A model generated the notes under the pieces. The model saw only the letters and a list, made by a program, of their open reading frames with translations. It did not search any database and was not told the origin of the DNA. The position numbers and the translations under genes were made by a program. Positions 12,376 through 19,887 of a stretch of DNA of 64,000 nt are shown here, piece after piece (position 1 is the first letter of the stretch; the number at the start of each line of letters is the position of its first letter). Source of the stretch: Vreelandella malpeensis (lineage in GTDB: Bacteria > Pseudomonadota > Gammaproteobacteria > Pseudomonadales > Halomonadaceae); the NCBI RefSeq assembly GCF_020622355.1, contig NZ_WHVL01000008.1:1-64000 (forward strand), in the 5' to 3' direction.

Positions 12376-13884
12376 ATGTCCAGAGAGAAGCCGCCGATGA
12401 GCGATATCGCGATTCGCGCGCGTCATGTCAGCAAGGTATTCGGGCAAAGCCGCGTGCTCGACGACGTCGAGTTCGAGCTGCGCCGGGGCGAGGTGCTGTG
12501 CCTGGCCGGCGAGAACGGCTGCGGCAAGAGCACCCTGATCAAGATCATCAACGGCGTCTACACCCCCGAACCCGGGGTGGAATTCACCTTCGGCGACGAG
12601 ACGCTGTCCGCGATCAGCCCGCTGGAGGCGCGTAGCCGCGGTATCCACGTCATCTGGCAGGACCTGGCGCTCTTTCCCCACCTCACCGTGGCGGAGAACA
12701 TCGTCTTCGACGACTACGTGGCCCGCCCCTGGCGCCCGCTTTCCGCCAGGCGCGCACTTGACGAGGCGCGCGCGATCATCGCCCGGTTCGGGCTCGATCT
12801 CGACCCTGCCGCCCGGGTCGAGGAGCTCTCCATCGCCCACCGTCAGCTGGTGGCGATCTGCCGGGTGCTGCGCGCCGGCGCCAGCATCATCTTCATGGAC
12901 GAGCCGACCGCCTCGCTGACCTACAAGGAAGTGCAGTCGCTGCTCGACATCACCCGTTCGCTCGCCGCCCAAGGCATCTCGATCGTGCTGGTCAGCCACC
13001 GTCTGGCGGAAGTGCTGGACGTCTGCCAGCGCGTCACGGTGCTGAGAAATGGCCGCCTGGTGGGCACCTACCCCACCGAGGGCATGACCCAGGCACGGCT
13101 CTCCACGCTGATGACCGGCCTCGAGCTCGAACACACGCCCCGGGCGAGCGCTTGGAAGGGCGCGCCGGTGCTGGAGCTTCAAGACCTGAGCCGTGAAGGT
13201 GAGTTCGAGAACGTCTCCTTCACCCTGCACCGCGGCGAGATCCTGGGCTTGACCGGACTGCTCGGCGCCGGGCGCAGCGAGCTCGCCCACGCGATCTTCG
13301 GCATGACACGGCCCACCGGCGGGCAGATGTTCAAGGACGGCAAGCCCCTGAAACTGCGCTCCAACCGCGACGCCGTGCGCCACCAGATCGCCTACCTCTC
13401 GGAGGACCGGCTGAACCTGGGGCTGGTGCAGAACCAGTCGATCGAGATGAACAGCGCCGTGACGGTGCTGCCCGCACTCGAGAAGCCGCGCGGTTTCCTG
13501 TCGCCCGGGCGCATCAAGGCACTCACCGCGCACTGGATCCAGGAGCTCAAGACCAAGGTGAGCGACCCGACGCTTGCGGTGTCATCGCTTTCCGGCGGCA
13601 ACCAGCAGCGCGTGGCGCTGGCCAAGTGGCTGGCCACCGAGCCGGACGTCCTGATCCTCGACTGCCCGACCATCGGCGTGGACGTCGGCGCCAAGGCGGG
13701 CATCTTCGAGATCATCCGCGAACTTGCCGACCAGGGCATGGCGATCATCCTGATCTCCGATGAAGCGGGCGAGATATGGATGAACACCGACCGCGCACTG
13801 GTGCTGCGCGAGGGCCGCGTCGCCTGCGAAATCATTCCCGCCGAGACCACCGAAGAAGCGCTGGAGGCCGTGATCAATGCGTAA
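12376..13884 (+). CDS. CUT2-type sugar ABC transporter ATP-binding protein (RbsA/MglA-like)
   Basis: A protein of about 502 residues with two fused nucleotide-binding domains. The first has a full Walker A (GENGCGKST), Walker B (IIFMDEPTA) and a degenerate signature (LSIAHRQ). The second has a degenerate Walker A (GLLGAGRSE) and a full signature (LSGGNQQR), exactly the asymmetry of RbsA/MglA proteins. It energises the two membrane permeases that follow. ATG 12376 and ATG 12397 are both plausible starts; the second (MSDIAIRARHV) has GAGAAG at good spacing. The stop overlaps the next gene by eight bases. Confidence 0.88.
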   Translation: MSREKPPMSDIAIRARHVSKVFGQSRVLDDVEFELRRGEVLCLAGENGCGKSTLIKIINGVYTPEPGVEFTFGDETLSAISPLEARSRGIHVIWQDLALFPHLTVAENIVFDDYVARPWRPLSARRALDEARAIIARFGLDLDPAARVEELSIAHRQLVAICRVLRAGASIIFMDEPTASLTYKEVQSLLDITRSLAAQGISIVLVSHRLAEVLDVCQRVTVLRNGRLVGTYPTEGMTQARLSTLMTGLELEHTPRASAWKGAPVLELQDLSREGEFENVSFTLHRGEILGLTGLLGAGRSELAHAIFGMTRPTGGQMFKDGKPLKLRSNRDAVRHQIAYLSEDRLNLGLVQNQSIEMNSAVTVLPALEKPRGFLSPGRIKALTAHWIQELKTKVSDPTLAVSSLSGGNQQRVALAKWLATEPDVLILDCPTIGVDVGAKAGIFEIIRELADQGMAIILISDEAGEIWMNTDRALVLREGRVACEIIPAETTEEALEAVINA

Positions 13885-14875
13885 GCTCTTATCCCGCCGG
13901 GGGCTCGGCACCGAAGGCGTGCTGCTGGGCATCCTGCTCGCGCTGTGCGTGGTGCTGTCACTGGCGACCGACAGTTTCCTGAGCGTGCAGAACCTGTTCG
14001 ACCTGCTCAACAACCAGTCGGTCAACATCATCTTCGCCGTGGGGCTGGTGGTGGTGCTGATCGCCGGCGGCATCGACATCTCCTTCGCGGTGGCCGCCTC
14101 GGTGGTGCAATACGTGGTGATGACGCTGCTGATCGACCATCTGGGCGGCGGCGGTTGGGTCGTGGGCATGGCGCTTTCCATGCTCACCGGCGCGCTGCTC
14201 GGGTTGATCAACGCCTTTCTGATCCACCGCTTTCGAATCGTCTCGATCATCGTCACCATCGGCACCTTCAACCTGTTCTTCGGGCTTTTGATGTACGTGA
14301 CCGGCGGCGTGTCGATCTACGACGTGCCGGACTGGCTCTACTACGCGATCCCGCTGCTCGACCTGCCTGCCGAGCGCGGCTCCGCGACGCTCTACCTGCC
14401 CGCCGCCGTGATGGCGGTGATGGTCGCTCTGACCTGGCTGATCCTGGCTCGCACCGGCTTCGGGCGGTCGGTCTACGGCTTCGGTTCGAGCCCCGAGGCG
14501 GCCAGACGCTCCGGCGTCAGCGTGTGGAAGATCCACGCCTTCGCCTACGGCTGGCTGGGGTTGTGCGCCGGAGTGGCCGGCTTGATGCAGGCACACATCG
14601 TTCAGGAAGTGGTGCCCAACGCCTTGATCGGCCAGGAGCTGACCATCCTGGCTGCCGTGGTGCTGGGTGGCGCGACCCTGGGCGGTGGGCGCGGCACGGT
14701 GCTCGGCGCGGTGCTCGGGGTGCTGCTGCTCGCCGTGGTGCAGAACGGCTTGAACCTGCTGGGCGTCACTCCCTACGCGTTTCGCATGATCGTCGGGCTG
14801 ATCATTCTCGTCGCGATCACCACCAGTAACCTGGGCAACCTGCTGCCCCGTTCCACCAGGGCGAAAAATCCATGA
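13877..14875 (+). CDS. Sugar ABC transporter permease (first)
   Basis: The 332-residue polytopic inner-membrane protein of the BPD_transp_2 (RbsC/LsrC-like) family has about 8-10 predicted membrane segments and the conserved LIAGGIDISFA segment near residue 57 and GGATLGGGRGTVLGAVLG near residue 260. It forms the translocation channel with the second permease. The start overlaps the ATPase gene by eight bases and the stop overlaps the second permease as ATGA, so the three membrane-complex genes are translationally coupled. Confidence 0.88.
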   Translation: MRKLLSRRGLGTEGVLLGILLALCVVLSLATDSFLSVQNLFDLLNNQSVNIIFAVGLVVVLIAGGIDISFAVAASVVQYVVMTLLIDHLGGGGWVVGMALSMLTGALLGLINAFLIHRFRIVSIIVTIGTFNLFFGLLMYVTGGVSIYDVPDWLYYAIPLLDLPAERGSATLYLPAAVMAVMVALTWLILARTGFGRSVYGFGSSPEAARRSGVSVWKIHAFAYGWLGLCAGVAGLMQAHIVQEVVPNALIGQELTILAAVVLGGATLGGGRGTVLGAVLGVLLLAVVQNGLNLLGVTPYAFRMIVGLIILVAITTSNLGNLLPRSTRAKNP

Positions 14876-15858
14876 ACAAGCCGTTGAACACGCCGCGCGC
14901 TGGCCTGCGCCTGGGCGGCGATACCCGCGAAGTGCTGGTGATGGCCGCGCTGCTGGTCGCGAGCATCGCGCTCTTCTCCTTCGCGGCACCGGGCTTTCTC
15001 GGCGCCGCCAACTTCAACTCCATGGCGATGCAGCTGCCGGAGCTCGGGCTGCTGTCGCTGGCCATGCTGGTGCCGATCATCTCCGGGGGGCTGAATCTCT
15101 CGGTCACCTTCACCGCCAACATCGCCGGTCTCGCTACCGCCTGGCTGGTACAGGGCGTGCTCGGGGACCTGGGGCTCGCAAGCGCCCCGCTGGCCATCAT
15201 CGCCGGTCTCGGCGTGGGGGCGGCAGCGGGCTGCCTGATCGGGGTGATTGTCGCCTACGTGGGCGCGCACCCGATTCTGGTCTCGCTCGGGGCGATGATC
15301 TTTTTGCAGGGGCTGGGCGAGTTCCTGACCCGCGGCGGTGGCCTCTCCGGCATGCCCGAGGCATTCCAGGTGATCGGCGCCGGCCACTTTCTCGGCGTGC
15401 CGATGCCGATGTGGATCTTTCTCGGCGCGGCGGCGGTGCTGTTCTACATCATGCACTTCACCCGCACCGGCTTCTCGATCTACATGCTCGGCTCCAACGC
15501 CCGGGCCACCGAGTACTCCGGCATCAACGTCAAGCGCGTATTGATCGTCGTCTACACGCTCTCCGGGCTTCTGGCCGGGCTTGCCGGCATGGTGATGCTG
15601 GCGCGCTTCAACTCGGTACGCGTGGGCCATGGCGAGAGCTACCTGCTGATCACCGTGCTGGCCTGCTTTCTGGCCGGCGCCAACCCGTTCGGCGGCTTCG
15701 GCCGGGTGCTGCCGCTGGTGCTGGGACTGATGAGCCTGCAGGTGATCGCCTCGGGCATGAACCTGATGGGCGCGAGCCAGCACCTGGCCACCGCCGTCTG
15801 GGGCGGGTTCCTGATCATCGTGATGGCACTGCGCATGCCGTTTCTCAAACAGTCGTGA
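14872..15858 (+). CDS. Sugar ABC transporter permease (second)
   Basis: The 328-residue BPD_transp_2 family inner-membrane permease has about 8-10 hydrophobic segments. It carries the conserved PIISGGLNLSVTFTANIAGL motif near residue 65 and AGANPFGGFGRVLPLVLG near residue 265. It pairs with the preceding permease as a heterodimer, as in LsrC/LsrD-type systems rather than the RbsC homodimer. The four-base ATGA overlap with the first permease and the eight-base gap to the kinase show one operon. Confidence 0.88.
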   Translation: MNKPLNTPRAGLRLGGDTREVLVMAALLVASIALFSFAAPGFLGAANFNSMAMQLPELGLLSLAMLVPIISGGLNLSVTFTANIAGLATAWLVQGVLGDLGLASAPLAIIAGLGVGAAAGCLIGVIVAYVGAHPILVSLGAMIFLQGLGEFLTRGGGLSGMPEAFQVIGAGHFLGVPMPMWIFLGAAAVLFYIMHFTRTGFSIYMLGSNARATEYSGINVKRVLIVVYTLSGLLAGLAGMVMLARFNSVRVGHGESYLLITVLACFLAGANPFGGFGRVLPLVLGLMSLQVIASGMNLMGASQHLATAVWGGFLIIVMALRMPFLKQS

Positions 15859-15866
15859 GTAAATAA

Positions 15867-17426
15867 ATGAGTCATCAAGAGCACGTTCTGGGCATCGACA
15901 TCGGCACCGGCAGCGCCCGGGCGGGTATCTTCACCTCGGACGGCGTGATGCTGGCCGAGGCCAAGACGCCGATCGCCATGCATCGCCCCGCCGAGCATCA
16001 CGTCGAGCAGAGCTCGACCAACATCTGGCGTGCGGTATGCAGCGCCACCCGACGGGCGAGAGAGGCCGCCGGGGTGAGTGCTGCGAGCGTGACGCGCATG
16101 TCGGTCAGCGCCACCTGCTCGTTGGTGCTGCTGGACAAGGCGTACCGGCCGCTGGCGCTCTCGCCGGGCGAGGAGCCCTTTGACATCATCGTCTGGATGG
16201 ATCACCGCGCCACGGTTGAAGCCGCCGAGTGCACGGCCACCGGCGGTGCGCCGCTGGCCAACCTGGGCGGGACGATGTCGCCGGAAATGCAGATGCCCAA
16301 GCTCAAGTGGCTCAAGCGTCACCGCCCGGCGCTCTACGAGCAGATCGGCTACGCCGGGGATCTCGGCGATTGGCTGGGCTTTCAGTGCACCGGCTCTTTC
16401 GAGCGCTCGGTGTGCATGCTGGCCTGCAAGTGGACCTTCGACCCGCGCCCGGGCCACGGCTGGGACCGTGACTTCCTCGCTCGCATCGACATGGCGGACG
16501 TGATCGAGCGCGCCGCACTCCCGGAAACCGCGCAGCCCGTGGGCGTGGATCTGGGGGCGCTCACCGAGGCCGCCGCCGCGGATCTCGGTCTGACCACCGG
16601 GTGTCGCTTCTCGGTAGGCATGATCGACGCCTACGCCGGCGCCCTGGGAACCTTGGGTCGCAGCCTGACCGACGGCCCCAAGCGCCGCCTGGCGGTGATC
16701 GGCGGCACCTCCACCTGCCATATCGCCGCCCAGCCCGAGCGCTGCGCGGTGCCCGGCGTGTGGGGCCCCTACCCCGGGGCGCTAGGCGACGCCTTCGTGG
16801 CCAACGAAGGCGGCCAGAGCATCACCGGCGCGCTGCTCGATCACCTGGTGGCGATGTTCGCCGCTGGCGGCGAGTTCGGCGACGACGTCCACGGCGCGCT
16901 CTCCGAGATCCTGCTCGAGCGCCTGGCAAAGGGCGACCCGGCTCCGCATACCCACGTCTGCCCAGATTTCATCGGCAACCGCTCGCCGCTGGCGGACCCG
17001 GAGATTCGCGGCGCGATCACCGGACTCACGCTGGACTCCCCTCGTGAGAGCTTCATCAAGGTGTACTGGGCGGCCGCCACGGCACTGGTCTACGGCACCC
17101 GGGCGATCATCGACCGCATGAACGCCCACGGCTACGCCATCGACACCCTGCACCTGAGCGGCGGCCATGGCCGGTCGGCGCTGCTGCGCAAGCTCTACGC
17201 CGACGGCACCGGCTGCCGGGTAGTGATCTCCGAGGCGCCGGAGCCGGTGCTGCTGGGCGCGGCGGTGGCGGCGCTGGGCGCAGGCTTTAACGGCGACGTG
17301 CTGGGCGTGGCCAAGACCCTCGCCCCGGGCGAGCGAGTGCAGGCGCCAGACCCGGCCATGGCCGAGCTGCACGCCACCCGCTACCAGGCGTTCAAGGCGC
17401 TCTACGCCGGACGCCTGGACGGATGA
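15867..17426 (+). CDS. FGGY-family pentulose kinase (ribulokinase-like)
   Basis: The 519-residue cytoplasmic kinase of the FGGY family phosphorylates a ketopentose after import. The N-terminal ATPase-fold motif LGIDIGTGSARAGIF, the linker WMDHRA, the GGTSTCH phosphate loop and the C-terminal HLSGGHGRS are all visible. WGPYPGALGDAFVANEGGQS and CPDFIGNRSPL are typical of the D-ribulokinase-like subgroup (the YDR109C/FGGY type), so D-ribulose or a related pentulose is the likely substrate. No isomerase or dehydrogenase gene accompanies it, suggesting that the imported sugar is already a ketose. Last gene of the cassette, ending 67 bases before rph. Confidence 0.85.
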   Translation: MSHQEHVLGIDIGTGSARAGIFTSDGVMLAEAKTPIAMHRPAEHHVEQSSTNIWRAVCSATRRAREAAGVSAASVTRMSVSATCSLVLLDKAYRPLALSPGEEPFDIIVWMDHRATVEAAECTATGGAPLANLGGTMSPEMQMPKLKWLKRHRPALYEQIGYAGDLGDWLGFQCTGSFERSVCMLACKWTFDPRPGHGWDRDFLARIDMADVIERAALPETAQPVGVDLGALTEAAAADLGLTTGCRFSVGMIDAYAGALGTLGRSLTDGPKRRLAVIGGTSTCHIAAQPERCAVPGVWGPYPGALGDAFVANEGGQSITGALLDHLVAMFAAGGEFGDDVHGALSEILLERLAKGDPAPHTHVCPDFIGNRSPLADPEIRGAITGLTLDSPRESFIKVYWAAATALVYGTRAIIDRMNAHGYAIDTLHLSGGHGRSALLRKLYADGTGCRVVISEAPEPVLLGAAVAALGAGFNGDVLGVAKTLAPGERVQAPDPAMAELHATRYQAFKALYAGRLDG

Positions 17427-17493: not shown

Positions 17494-18231
17494 ATGCGTC
17501 CCGACGTCGTTCGCCCCAGTAACCGCGCCGCCGACGAGCTGCGCGACATTCGCCTGACCCGCGACTTCACCCGCCACGCCGAAGGATCGGTGCTGGTCGA
17601 GTTCGGCGATACCAAGGTGCTGTGCAACGCAAGCGTGGAGGCGGGCGTGCCGCGCTGGCTGCGCGGCAAGCACCAGGGGTGGGTGACGGCCGAGTACGGC
17701 ATGCTGCCCCGGGCTACCCACACCCGGGGCGGGCGTGAAGCCAGCCGTGGCAAGCAGAGCGGGCGTACGCTGGAGATCCAGCGGCTGATCGGGCGCAGCC
17801 TGCGCGCGGCGGTGAATCTCAAGAAGCTCGGCGAGTTCACCATCACCGTGGATTGCGACGTGATCCAGGCCGACGGCGGCACCCGCACCGCGGCGATCAC
17901 CGGCGGCTGCGTGGCGCTGGTGGACGCGCTTCGCTATCTTCAGCGCGAGAGGCTGATCAAGAGCGATCCGTTCAAGCAGCTGGTCAGCGCCATATCGGTG
18001 GGCATCTACAAGGGCGTGCCGGTGCTGGATCTCGACTACCCGGAGGACAGCAAGGCGGACACCGACCTCAACGTGGTGATGACCGAAAGCGGTGAGCTGA
18101 TCGAGGTGCAGGGCACCGCCGAAGCGGGCGCCTTCAGCCGCGCCGAGCTCAATGCCATGCTCGATCTCGCCGAGCAGGCCGGCGAGGCCCTTCGCGGCCA
18201 CCAGCGCGAGGCGCTGGAGATTCGCGACTAG
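17494..18231 (+). CDS. rph: Ribonuclease PH
   Basis: RNase PH trims the 3' ends of tRNA precursors by phosphorolysis in the cytoplasm. The 245-residue product starts [17 protein letters not shown] and shows the phosphate-binding [16 protein letters not shown] and the catalytic region [20 protein letters not shown]. The ATG at 17494 follows AAGAGAGG; a longer frame from 17467 adds a non-family leader. A perfect hairpin follows at 18266-18300. In Pseudomonas the same neighbourhood (rph, crc, pyrE) is found, with yicC adjacent; here yicC is 7.5 kb away because of the sugar cassette. Confidence 0.95.
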
Positions 18232-18324: not shown

Positions 18325-19092
18325 CTACAGCGCCAGATCGTACTCCACAATCAGCGGGGCGTACTCGGAGAAGGTCGCGTCGTAGTCGATCCAGGCGTCC
18401 ACCACGTGGCGGCGGAAGTTGGGGCCGACCAACTGGTAGTCGATGCGCCAGCCTTCCTGACGGCTGCGCGGCACATCCTGGTCGAGCTTCGGCCAGAAGG
18501 TGTACTCGCCGGCGTCGCGATTGATCTCGCGGAAGGTGTCGATGAAGCCGGTCGGGCCGAGCACCTGATCCATCCAGGCGCGCTCTTCCGGGCGAAAGCC
18601 GGAGGTGAGCTGGTTGTCGGACCAGTTGGCCAGGTCCACGGTCTTGTGGGCGACGTGCCAGGTACCGCAGATGATGTACTCGCGACGCTTGCGCGACATC
18701 TTGGTCAGGTACTCCTGGTACTGCTCCATGAAGGCGTGCTTGGCCTTCTGGTCCGAGCCGTCCGGCATCAGGAAGGTGGCGATGCTGAAGCGGTCGTAGT
18801 CCGCCTGCAGAAAACGCCCTTCGTGATCGCACTGGGGAAAGCCCAGCCCGTACATGATCGCCTTGGGAATCTTGCGGCAATAGAGCCCCACCCCGGAGAA
18901 GCCATCCTCCTCGGCATCCAGGAAATAGCCTTCGTAGCCTTCCGGATAGAGGATATGGTCGCCCAGTTCGAAGCTCTTGGCCTTGAGGTTCTGCACGCAG
19001 ACCACGTCGGCGTCCTGCTGAGCCAGCCAGTCCAGGAAGCCGCGGTCGACGGCATCACGAATACCGTTGACATTAATGCTGGCAATTTTCAT
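18325..19092 (-). CDS. crc: Crc homologue: catabolite repression control protein with an inactive ExoIII-like fold
   Basis: The 255-residue product has the exonuclease III/EEP fold from MKIASINVNGIRDAV onward, but the nuclease residues are changed. The metal-binding Glu of the QETK motif is Asn35 (VQNLKA), the GDxN motif is G-T144-W-H146, and the terminal SDH is S242-E243-Y244. These losses, and blocks such as RKRREYI and APLIVEYD, match Pseudomonas Crc, which acts with Hfq to block translation of catabolic mRNAs rather than cutting DNA. The rph-crc-pyrE order is the Pseudomonas one. An automated annotation would probably call it exodeoxyribonuclease III; I consider that wrong. Confidence 0.85.
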   Translation of the reverse strand: MKIASINVNGIRDAVDRGFLDWLAQQDADVVCVQNLKAKSFELGDHILYPEGYEGYFLDAEEDGFSGVGLYCRKIPKAIMYGLGFPQCDHEGRFLQADYDRFSIATFLMPDGSDQKAKHAFMEQYQEYLTKMSRKRREYIICGTWHVAHKTVDLANWSDNQLTSGFRPEERAWMDQVLGPTGFIDTFREINRDAGEYTFWPKLDQDVPRSRQEGWRIDYQLVGPNFRRHVVDAWIDYDATFSEYAPLIVEYDLAL

Positions 19093-19224: not shown

Positions 19225-19887
19225 GTGGCTTCGACCCTTCAACCCTACCAGCGCGACTTCATTGCCTTCGCTATCGAGCAGGGCGTTCTCAAGTTCGGCG
19301 AATTCACGCTCAAGTCCGGGCGTGTCAGCCCCTATTTCTTCAATGCCGGCCTGTTCCAGACCGGACGGGCACTGGCCAAGCTCGGGCGCTTCTACGCTCA
19401 GGCCATCGAGCAAAGCGAACTTCGTGCCGATGTGCTGTTCGGCCCGGCTTACAAGGGCATTCCGCTTGCCGCCGTCACCGCCGCGGCGCTGGCCGACCAT
19501 TTTGATCGGGACATGCCTTACGCCTTCAACCGCAAGGAAGCCAAGGCTCACGGCGAGGGCGGCAACATCGTCGGCGCGCCGCTTTCCGGCGACATCCTGA
19601 TCATCGACGACGTGATCACCGCTGGCACCGCCATTCGCGAGGTGATGACGCTGATCGAGGCCGAGGGAGCGCGGGCCGGCGGCGTAATCGTGGCACTGGA
19701 TCGCCAGGAGCGCGGTCAGGGCGAGAAAAGCGCCATCCAGGAGGTCGCCGCCGAGTACGCCATGCCAGTGGTGAGCATCGTCACCCTGGCCCAGGTACTC
19801 GAGTATCTCGAGGAGCACGCCGGCGGCGAGATGCTCGCCTACGCCGAGGCGGTACGCGCTTACCGCGACCGCTACGGCGTCGCCTGA
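19225..19887 (+). CDS. pyrE: Orotate phosphoribosyltransferase
   Basis: This enzyme converts orotate and PRPP to orotidine 5'-phosphate in pyrimidine synthesis. The 220-residue product shows the PRPP-binding loop [13 protein letters not shown] near residue 125 and the N-terminal [17 protein letters not shown] typical of PyrE. Translation starts at GTG 19225 behind GAGAGAA. It is divergent from crc, with about 130 bases between them for both promoters, and its last 16 bases overlap the end of the convergent trmL gene. Confidence 0.95.

Follow-up and report, generated by a model that had tools for sequence, protein, structure and literature searches.

The window, by which we mean the whole stretch of 64,000 nucleotides of Vreelandella malpeensis DNA analysed here, carries between rph and pyrE an open reading frame for a protein of the exonuclease III/AP-endonuclease (ExoIII/NApe) type (Table 1). 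The initial annotation had described rph-crc-pyrE as the Pseudomonas gene order, and the same arrangement is indeed found in the two Pseudomonas-like loci (family code f21) for which both neighbours were present in the fetched stretch. Beside rph, at 13877-17426, sugar-ABC-type permeases and a sugar-kinase-like gene were recognised by eye.

Table 1. Features of the crc locus and codons of the residues discussed in the text (window coordinates; Pae, P. aeruginosa numbering)
Feature	Position	Strand	Basis or remark
rph (RNase PH), convergent with crc, downstream	17494..18231	+	
crc (degenerate ExoIII/NApe-type protein, probable Crc orthologue)	18325..19092	-	ATG start, 255 aa
Glu243-Tyr244 codons, replace terminal Asp-His (Pae Crc Gln245-His246)	18361..18366	-	alignment
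Arg227-Arg228 codons = Pae Crc R229-R230 (dimer interface)	18409..18414	-	alignment; role as given in PMC6422490
Arg192 codon = Pae Crc R196 (RNA contact)	18517..18519	-	alignment; role as given in PMC6422490
Thr144-Trp145-His146 codons, replace Asp-x-Asn of GDxN (Pae Crc Ser148, Tyr150)	18655..18663	-	alignment
Arg136-Arg137-Glu138 codons = Pae Crc R140, R141 (RNA contacts), E142 (dimer)	18679..18687	-	R140/R141 in 52/52 degenerate rows; roles as given in PMC6422490
Asn35 codon, replaces catalytic Glu (Pae Crc Asp35)	18988..18990	-	alignment; N in 78/80 (best 80 of 449 named relatives)
pyrE (orotate phosphoribosyltransferase), divergent from crc, upstream	19225..19887	+	

Within its fold family the protein is closest by sequence to solved Crc: a PDB search ranked 2myi first, at 254 bits (an entry deposited as exodeoxyribonuclease III), followed by 4jg3, P. 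aeruginosa Crc, at 246 bits, while the AP endonuclease NApe (2jc5) scored lower, at 222 bits. We take 2myi to be the Crc of P. syringae. Alignment to 4jg3 and to 2jc5 of Neisseria shows that the catalytic set expected of exonuclease III is not intact. Asn35 stands where the catalytic Glu35 would be, Thr144 and His146 replace the Asp and Asn of the GDxN motif, and Glu243-Tyr244 replaces the terminal Asp-His pair; the initial annotation had read every one of these residues correctly. It had added that Pseudomonas Crc is altered at these positions too, which holds at four of the five sites, with other replacements (D35, S148, Y150 and Q245), and fails at the fifth, as His246 is kept in P. aeruginosa Crc, both in the alignment and according to PMC3662782. 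Asn7 and the second catalytic Asp (D220 in P. aeruginosa) are retained in the window protein, the latter in all 79 rows of the alignment described below. The NCBIfam equivalog models nevertheless name the protein exodeoxyribonuclease III, with 203.5 bits for TIGR00633 (cut-off 99.05) and 188.1 bits for TIGR00195 (cut-off 182.55). Such a name on a dead enzyme hides Crc and is a likely source of wrong annotation. The genome encodes three further Exo_endo_phos proteins, one of which (L002) has the full catalytic set. An AlphaFold model built with 24 Halomonadaceae sequences was set aside for its mean pLDDT of 38.

A scan of named genomes confirmed 449 relatives, the best 80 of which (from Halomonas, Vreelandella, Billgrantia, Franzmannia and Halovibrio) were compared residue by residue. 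In P. aeruginosa numbering, these best 80 of 449 have N35 in 78 cases, T148 in 79, and E245 and F/Y246 in all 80, while position 150 is H in 67, N in 12 and Q in one; pyrE was found in all 80 stretches and rph in 76. Such recurrence shows that the dead sites are not a sequencing error. The loss of His246 throughout these 80 sequences also speaks against a general need for this residue, the phosphorylation of which is considered in PMC3662782.

In the Hfq/Crc/amiE complex, as described in PMC6422490, R140 and R141 touch the RNA and R229/R230 are the partners of E142; mutating R140, E142 or E193 abolished or weakened repression in P. aeruginosa according to the same source. Counterparts of R140, R141, E142, E193 (E189 here), R196, R229 and R230 are all present in the window protein, and all seven are kept in each of the best 80 of 449 named relatives. 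In the wider alignment both R140 and R141 occur in every degenerate row, against 13 and 22, respectively, of the 27 active ones. Four other contacts of the P. aeruginosa protein, K155, R162, F231 and W255, correspond to T, S, H and L in the window protein; as they vary across the whole degenerate set, we did not treat them as defining Crc.

Plain identity does not decide membership, since the window protein is 46.2% identical to P. aeruginosa Crc and 46.2 and 48.6% identical to two catalytically intact homologues. Homologues were placed in a tree, as the initial annotation had proposed. Among 194 genomes sampled in the order, 171 gave a match at 1e-10. The homologue set comprised 30 loci from the search and 44 fetched, hand-picked loci, mostly one genome per family code, and the resulting alignment of 79 rows includes three references, L002 and the window sequence, the last of these twice (WIN and L008); L001 and L003 are absent because they gave no tblastn match. 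The full catalytic set is present in 27 rows and 52 are degenerate. One of the two window rows, L002 and L035 (whose reading runs through a stop) were then removed, and in the 76-row maximum-likelihood tree a branch with 100/99 support separates the 51 degenerate rows, the window protein, P. aeruginosa Crc and 2myi among them, from the intact homologues. This split persists when the active-site columns and their neighbouring columns are removed. The clustering with active ExoIII proteins that the initial annotation had named as the outcome against a Crc homologue did not occur. Gene neighbourhood fits as well: pyrE adjoins 49 of 49 degenerate loci and rph lies in the stretch in 34 of 49, versus 5 and 6 of the 26 active loci, and the orientation is identical in all 34 loci where both genes are visible.

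The partners of Crc are all found in the same genome, namely Hfq, CbrA, CbrB and a CrcZ-like locus. The Hfq protein is closest to the Hfq chain of entry 8bvh, in which P. aeruginosa Crc is also present. Among the residues that PMC6422490 places on the distal face, I30, L32, Q33, Q52 and T61 are kept and Tyr25 is replaced by Phe25. CbrA is full length (981 residues) and 51% identical to CbrA of an f21 genome (G094). In a 12-kb stretch the order is gluQ, cbrA, cbrB, a gap of 851 bases, pcnB and a folK-like ORF, gluQ and folK being assigned by eye. A search of the genome with the Rfam CrcZ model (RF01675) gave only two weak neighbouring matches, of 14 and 9.9 bits for a gathering score of 95. Both sit just downstream of the cbrB-like gene, and it is because of this position, not of the score, that the gap was followed up. 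It contains 13 AAnAAnAA motifs for a maximum of 5 in shuffled sequences, of which 12 come after the sigma54-type site TGGCACGCGCAGTGCA. Under a rule looser than that of the standard scan, an 11-bp terminator-like hairpin with a short T tract follows, and the predicted RNA is about 455 nt long. The standard promoter and terminator scan listed neither a sigma70-type promoter nor, on the RNA strand, any terminator, this hairpin included. Among 20 loci scanned, the Rfam model recognised CrcZ in all four f21 loci and in none of the 16 others. As the present locus scores 14 bits for a threshold of 95, we call it CrcZ-like and not a member of the family. The 3' part of the Halomonadaceae CrcZ-like RNA (L038 8442-9292 and relatives) holds a block, TTGTTTTGAATACGAG ... 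CGTATTCA, GCGATGYGCCATC, that is kept in seven of seven aligned genomes; a search for it in other families found nothing except two 2-mismatch matches in L214.

The initial annotation had also suggested looking for A-rich motifs at the starts of catabolic genes. With a crude start caller, no AAnAAnAA motif was found at a gene start in the window. The sequence AANAANAANAA occurs 87 times in the genome, five of them inside the CrcZ-like gap. Once merged, and with the gap and the three sites of the window left out, 66 sites remain, among which seven lie in sense and none in antisense at (crudely) called gene starts. Five of the seven were judged real. The match in L243 was set aside by eye because the gene looks like a reverse-frame ORF, and that in L261 because its start was probably called too early; start matches in L277, L281 and L284 were lost under a stricter rule. 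Of the starts judged real, Pfam assigns two to TRAP binding proteins (DctP), one to an NAD_binding_2 protein and one to an ABC transporter ATPase; the fifth belongs to an aldose 1-epimerase-like gene assigned by eye, a fragment without Pfam match. In a porin-like gene, likewise a fragment assigned by eye without Pfam match, the motif spans the start. With crude start calls and small numbers the excess is suggestive only. A long run of AAC/AAT triplets stands directly before the start of the NAD_binding_2 protein (L248 1470-1513), a candidate Hfq/Crc target.

How far the parts extend was then assessed across the order. CbrA was matched at 1e-100 in 73 of 95 genomes, and CbrB at 1e-105 in 166 of 194; the latter figure is a maximum, since other NtrC-type regulators may be counted among its weaker matches. 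An array was scored when the number of AAnAAnAA motifs behind cbrB exceeded that of all 200 shuffles, in 65 gaps from 64 genomes (G151 counted twice; L207, too short, left out); for loci in which no pcnB was recognised, the 1,000 bases directly behind cbrB were taken, possibly including the next gene. By this measure 52 of the 65 gaps, from 28 family codes, carry an array, with a sigma54-type pattern in 45 of the 52 and with 823 motifs in sense versus 63 in antisense. The other 13 gaps are at or below the shuffle maximum: six are ties with 4-10 motifs (L148, L201, L205, L210, L216 and L218), two f9 gaps of less than 280 bases have 2 motifs each (L135 and L139), and five have none (L146 and L225, both of G151; L193, cut by a contig end; L204; and L214, in whose genome, G035, an array of 18 is located upstream of pcnB instead, L362). 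Of the 47 family codes sampled, 32 showed degenerate copies of the enzyme, the residue-by-residue check having covered part of the 47. A follow-up of 16 genomes contributed eight of these copies, all beside rph and pyrE, one of them cut at its N-terminus (L369) and one unusually changed (L368), and added degenerate copies for f4 and f32, previously represented only by an active copy. The initial annotation, which expected a Crc in Halomonadaceae to extend the range of this protein, understated that range. Outside the order the picture differs. When 229 genomes were sampled across the class, 26 gave a CbrA match, and 23 of these lie outside the order. Twenty such loci were fetched (L303-L322) and cbrB was seen in 19, all except L311; none of these 19 gaps exceeds the shuffles and a single sigma54 pattern was matched. 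These CbrA-CbrB pairs without array are perhaps an older form of the system. At the best 29 of 168 matching genomes' loci outside the order, the catalytic set is intact in 29 of 29 and pyrE adjoins in 20; as the residue check covered these best 29, degenerate copies of lower score could be missed.

Several genomes of the order have only some of the parts. Three Halomonadaceae (G130, G036 and G176) possess Crc and a sigma54-type array of 14-18 motifs located between a gluQ-like ORF and pcnB (L288-L290), with no CbrB match at 1e-105 and, for G036, no CbrA match at 1e-100 either. In f27, Crc is present (L174), no CbrA was matched at 1e-100 in the two genomes sampled (G026 and G065), and 13-17 motifs lie upstream of pcnB in five genomes, above all shuffles in three. 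Two f29 genomes, G098 and G126 (L224 and L226), have CbrB and the array and no Crc homologue better than about 1e-11. An intact enzyme occupies the rph-pyrE locus (L163, L030, L031, L032 and L176) in f17, f22, f26 and f29 (G028), families that also have the array (L203, L138, L127 and L206). For f33 and f44 only intact copies were seen, none of them beside pyrE.

We conclude, with a probability of about 0.87, that the window encodes the orthologue of Crc in Halomonadaceae, a protein descended from an AP endonuclease that has lost catalysis and would now serve as a co-repressor. The lost catalytic residues, the clade, the locus, the contact residues, the full set of partners and the motif array are all shown at the level of sequence. 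By homology to the solved Pseudomonas complex, the distal face of Hfq would bind A-rich (ARN/AAnAAnAA) tracts at the starts of mRNAs for uptake and catabolism. Crc dimers would clamp the Hfq-RNA complex through Arg136/Arg137 and Arg192, with Glu138-Arg227/228 as dimer contacts, and the clamped complex would block ribosomes. When the preferred carbon source is exhausted, CbrA-CbrB together with sigma54 would produce the CrcZ-like RNA of about 455 nt from the cbrB-pcnB gap, and its many AAnAAnAA motifs would draw Hfq, and Crc with it, away. Expression, binding, repression and decoy action are proposed here by analogy with Pseudomonas.

That the protein could still be a DNA-repair enzyme, an ExoIII/NApe variant cutting with a rearranged active site, would agree with the two NCBIfam scores above cut-off, with the second catalytic Asp kept in every alignment row and with Asn7. 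We consider this very improbable, given that every one of the best 80 of 449 named relatives has replaced Glu35, Asp148, Asp245 and His246, and 68 of these 80 also Asn150, that no intact copy of the set falls within the degenerate clade, and that three other Exo_endo_phos genes, L002 with its full catalytic set among them, exist in the genome; moreover, P. aeruginosa Crc, which has fewer changes, is described as devoid of nuclease activity (PMC3662782). A dead paralogue acting without Hfq, for example as a scaffold in another pathway, is a little easier to imagine yet improbable. It could account for the lack of conservation of K155, R162, F231 and W255, for Phe25 in Hfq, and for the array in two f29 genomes that have no Crc homologue better than about 1e-11; against it speak the invariance of R140, E142, E193 and R229/R230 in the best 80 of 449 named relatives and the candidate decoy array, which this genome possesses and which recurs across the order. 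Finally, the neighbourhood shared with Pseudomonas might suggest that Halomonadaceae acquired crc from that genus by horizontal transfer. In the tree, however, the Halomonadaceae group with f20, f6, f38, f7, f37 and f27 and apart from the Pseudomonas references, whose family code is f21; this makes a recent transfer unlikely; as the same locus moreover recurs in 32 family codes, acquisition from Pseudomonas is hardly credible.

With Crc orthology as the preferred reading, the combination of Crc and decoy array looks like an order-wide invention. On unrooted trees and sampled genomes, the simplest history would be that catalysis was lost, near the base of the order, in a previously active enzyme encoded next to pyrE, and that the array appeared there too. 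The intact homologues at rph-pyrE in f17, f22, f26 and f29 are possible evolutionary intermediates. A fuller scenario is tentative and, in our view, has the odds against it: Crc and decoy RNA would have a single origin near the base of the order, the sigma54 AAnAAnAA array having arisen behind an older cbrAB; the intact enzymes accompanied by an array may be living intermediates, repair nucleases that are also Hfq co-repressors; and in part of the Halomonadaceae the decoy RNA would have been freed from CbrAB and placed under another sigma54 activator.

This distribution contrasts with published views. According to a 2022 review, CbrAB occurs in Pseudomonadaceae alone, hosted exclusively by Pseudomonas and Azotobacter, which are also the only genera for which a cbrA-cbrB-crcZ arrangement is described (PMC8871633), and another article speaks of a system exclusive of the Pseudomonads (PMC6296734). 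Alcanivorax is stated to be without Crc homologue (PMC9788540, 2022), Crc is reported to act in Acinetobacter (PMC8312277), and cbrAB transcripts are mentioned for ocean communities (PMC5073097). In the open-licence literature on Crc, CrcZ, CbrA/CbrB and Hfq in Halomonas or Marinobacter, no title or beginning of an abstract among the matches listed reports the system. The whole set of parts in a Halomonas-type genome, with parts recurrent across the order, thus stands against the exclusivity of CbrAB to Pseudomonadaceae as worded in that review (PMC8871633). It makes the hierarchy of carbon sources in Halomonas-type bacteria testable, and as the death of the enzyme and the decoy array are seemingly confined to the same order, this order offers a place to test their origin.

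Compared with known systems, the window protein resembles P. aeruginosa Crc (4jg3, 6o1k) in its fold family, at 46% identity, in the loss of Glu35, Asp148, Asn150 and Asp245, in R140-R141-E142, E193, R196 and R229-R230, and in the rph-crc-pyrE arrangement. It differs in the replacements at each dead site, in K155, R162, F231 and W255, and in the loss of His246, which is Tyr in the window protein and mostly Phe in its relatives. With NApe of Neisseria meningitidis (2jc5), an active AP endonuclease, it shares the fold family (41% identity) and R141; unlike the window protein, NApe has an intact catalytic set and lacks R140, R196, R229 and R230. The CrcZ-like locus is similar to Pseudomonas CrcZ (RF01675) in its position between cbrB and pcnB, its sigma54-type site, its many AAnAAnAA motifs and its terminator-like hairpin, but is missed by the Rfam model (14 versus 95 bits), and Halomonadaceae have their own conserved 3' block. 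As in the CbrA-CbrB two-component system, a full-length CbrA of 981 residues is encoded beside CbrB, upstream of the array; here, however, the pair is found outside Pseudomonadaceae, its exclusive place according to the 2022 review cited above (PMC8871633).
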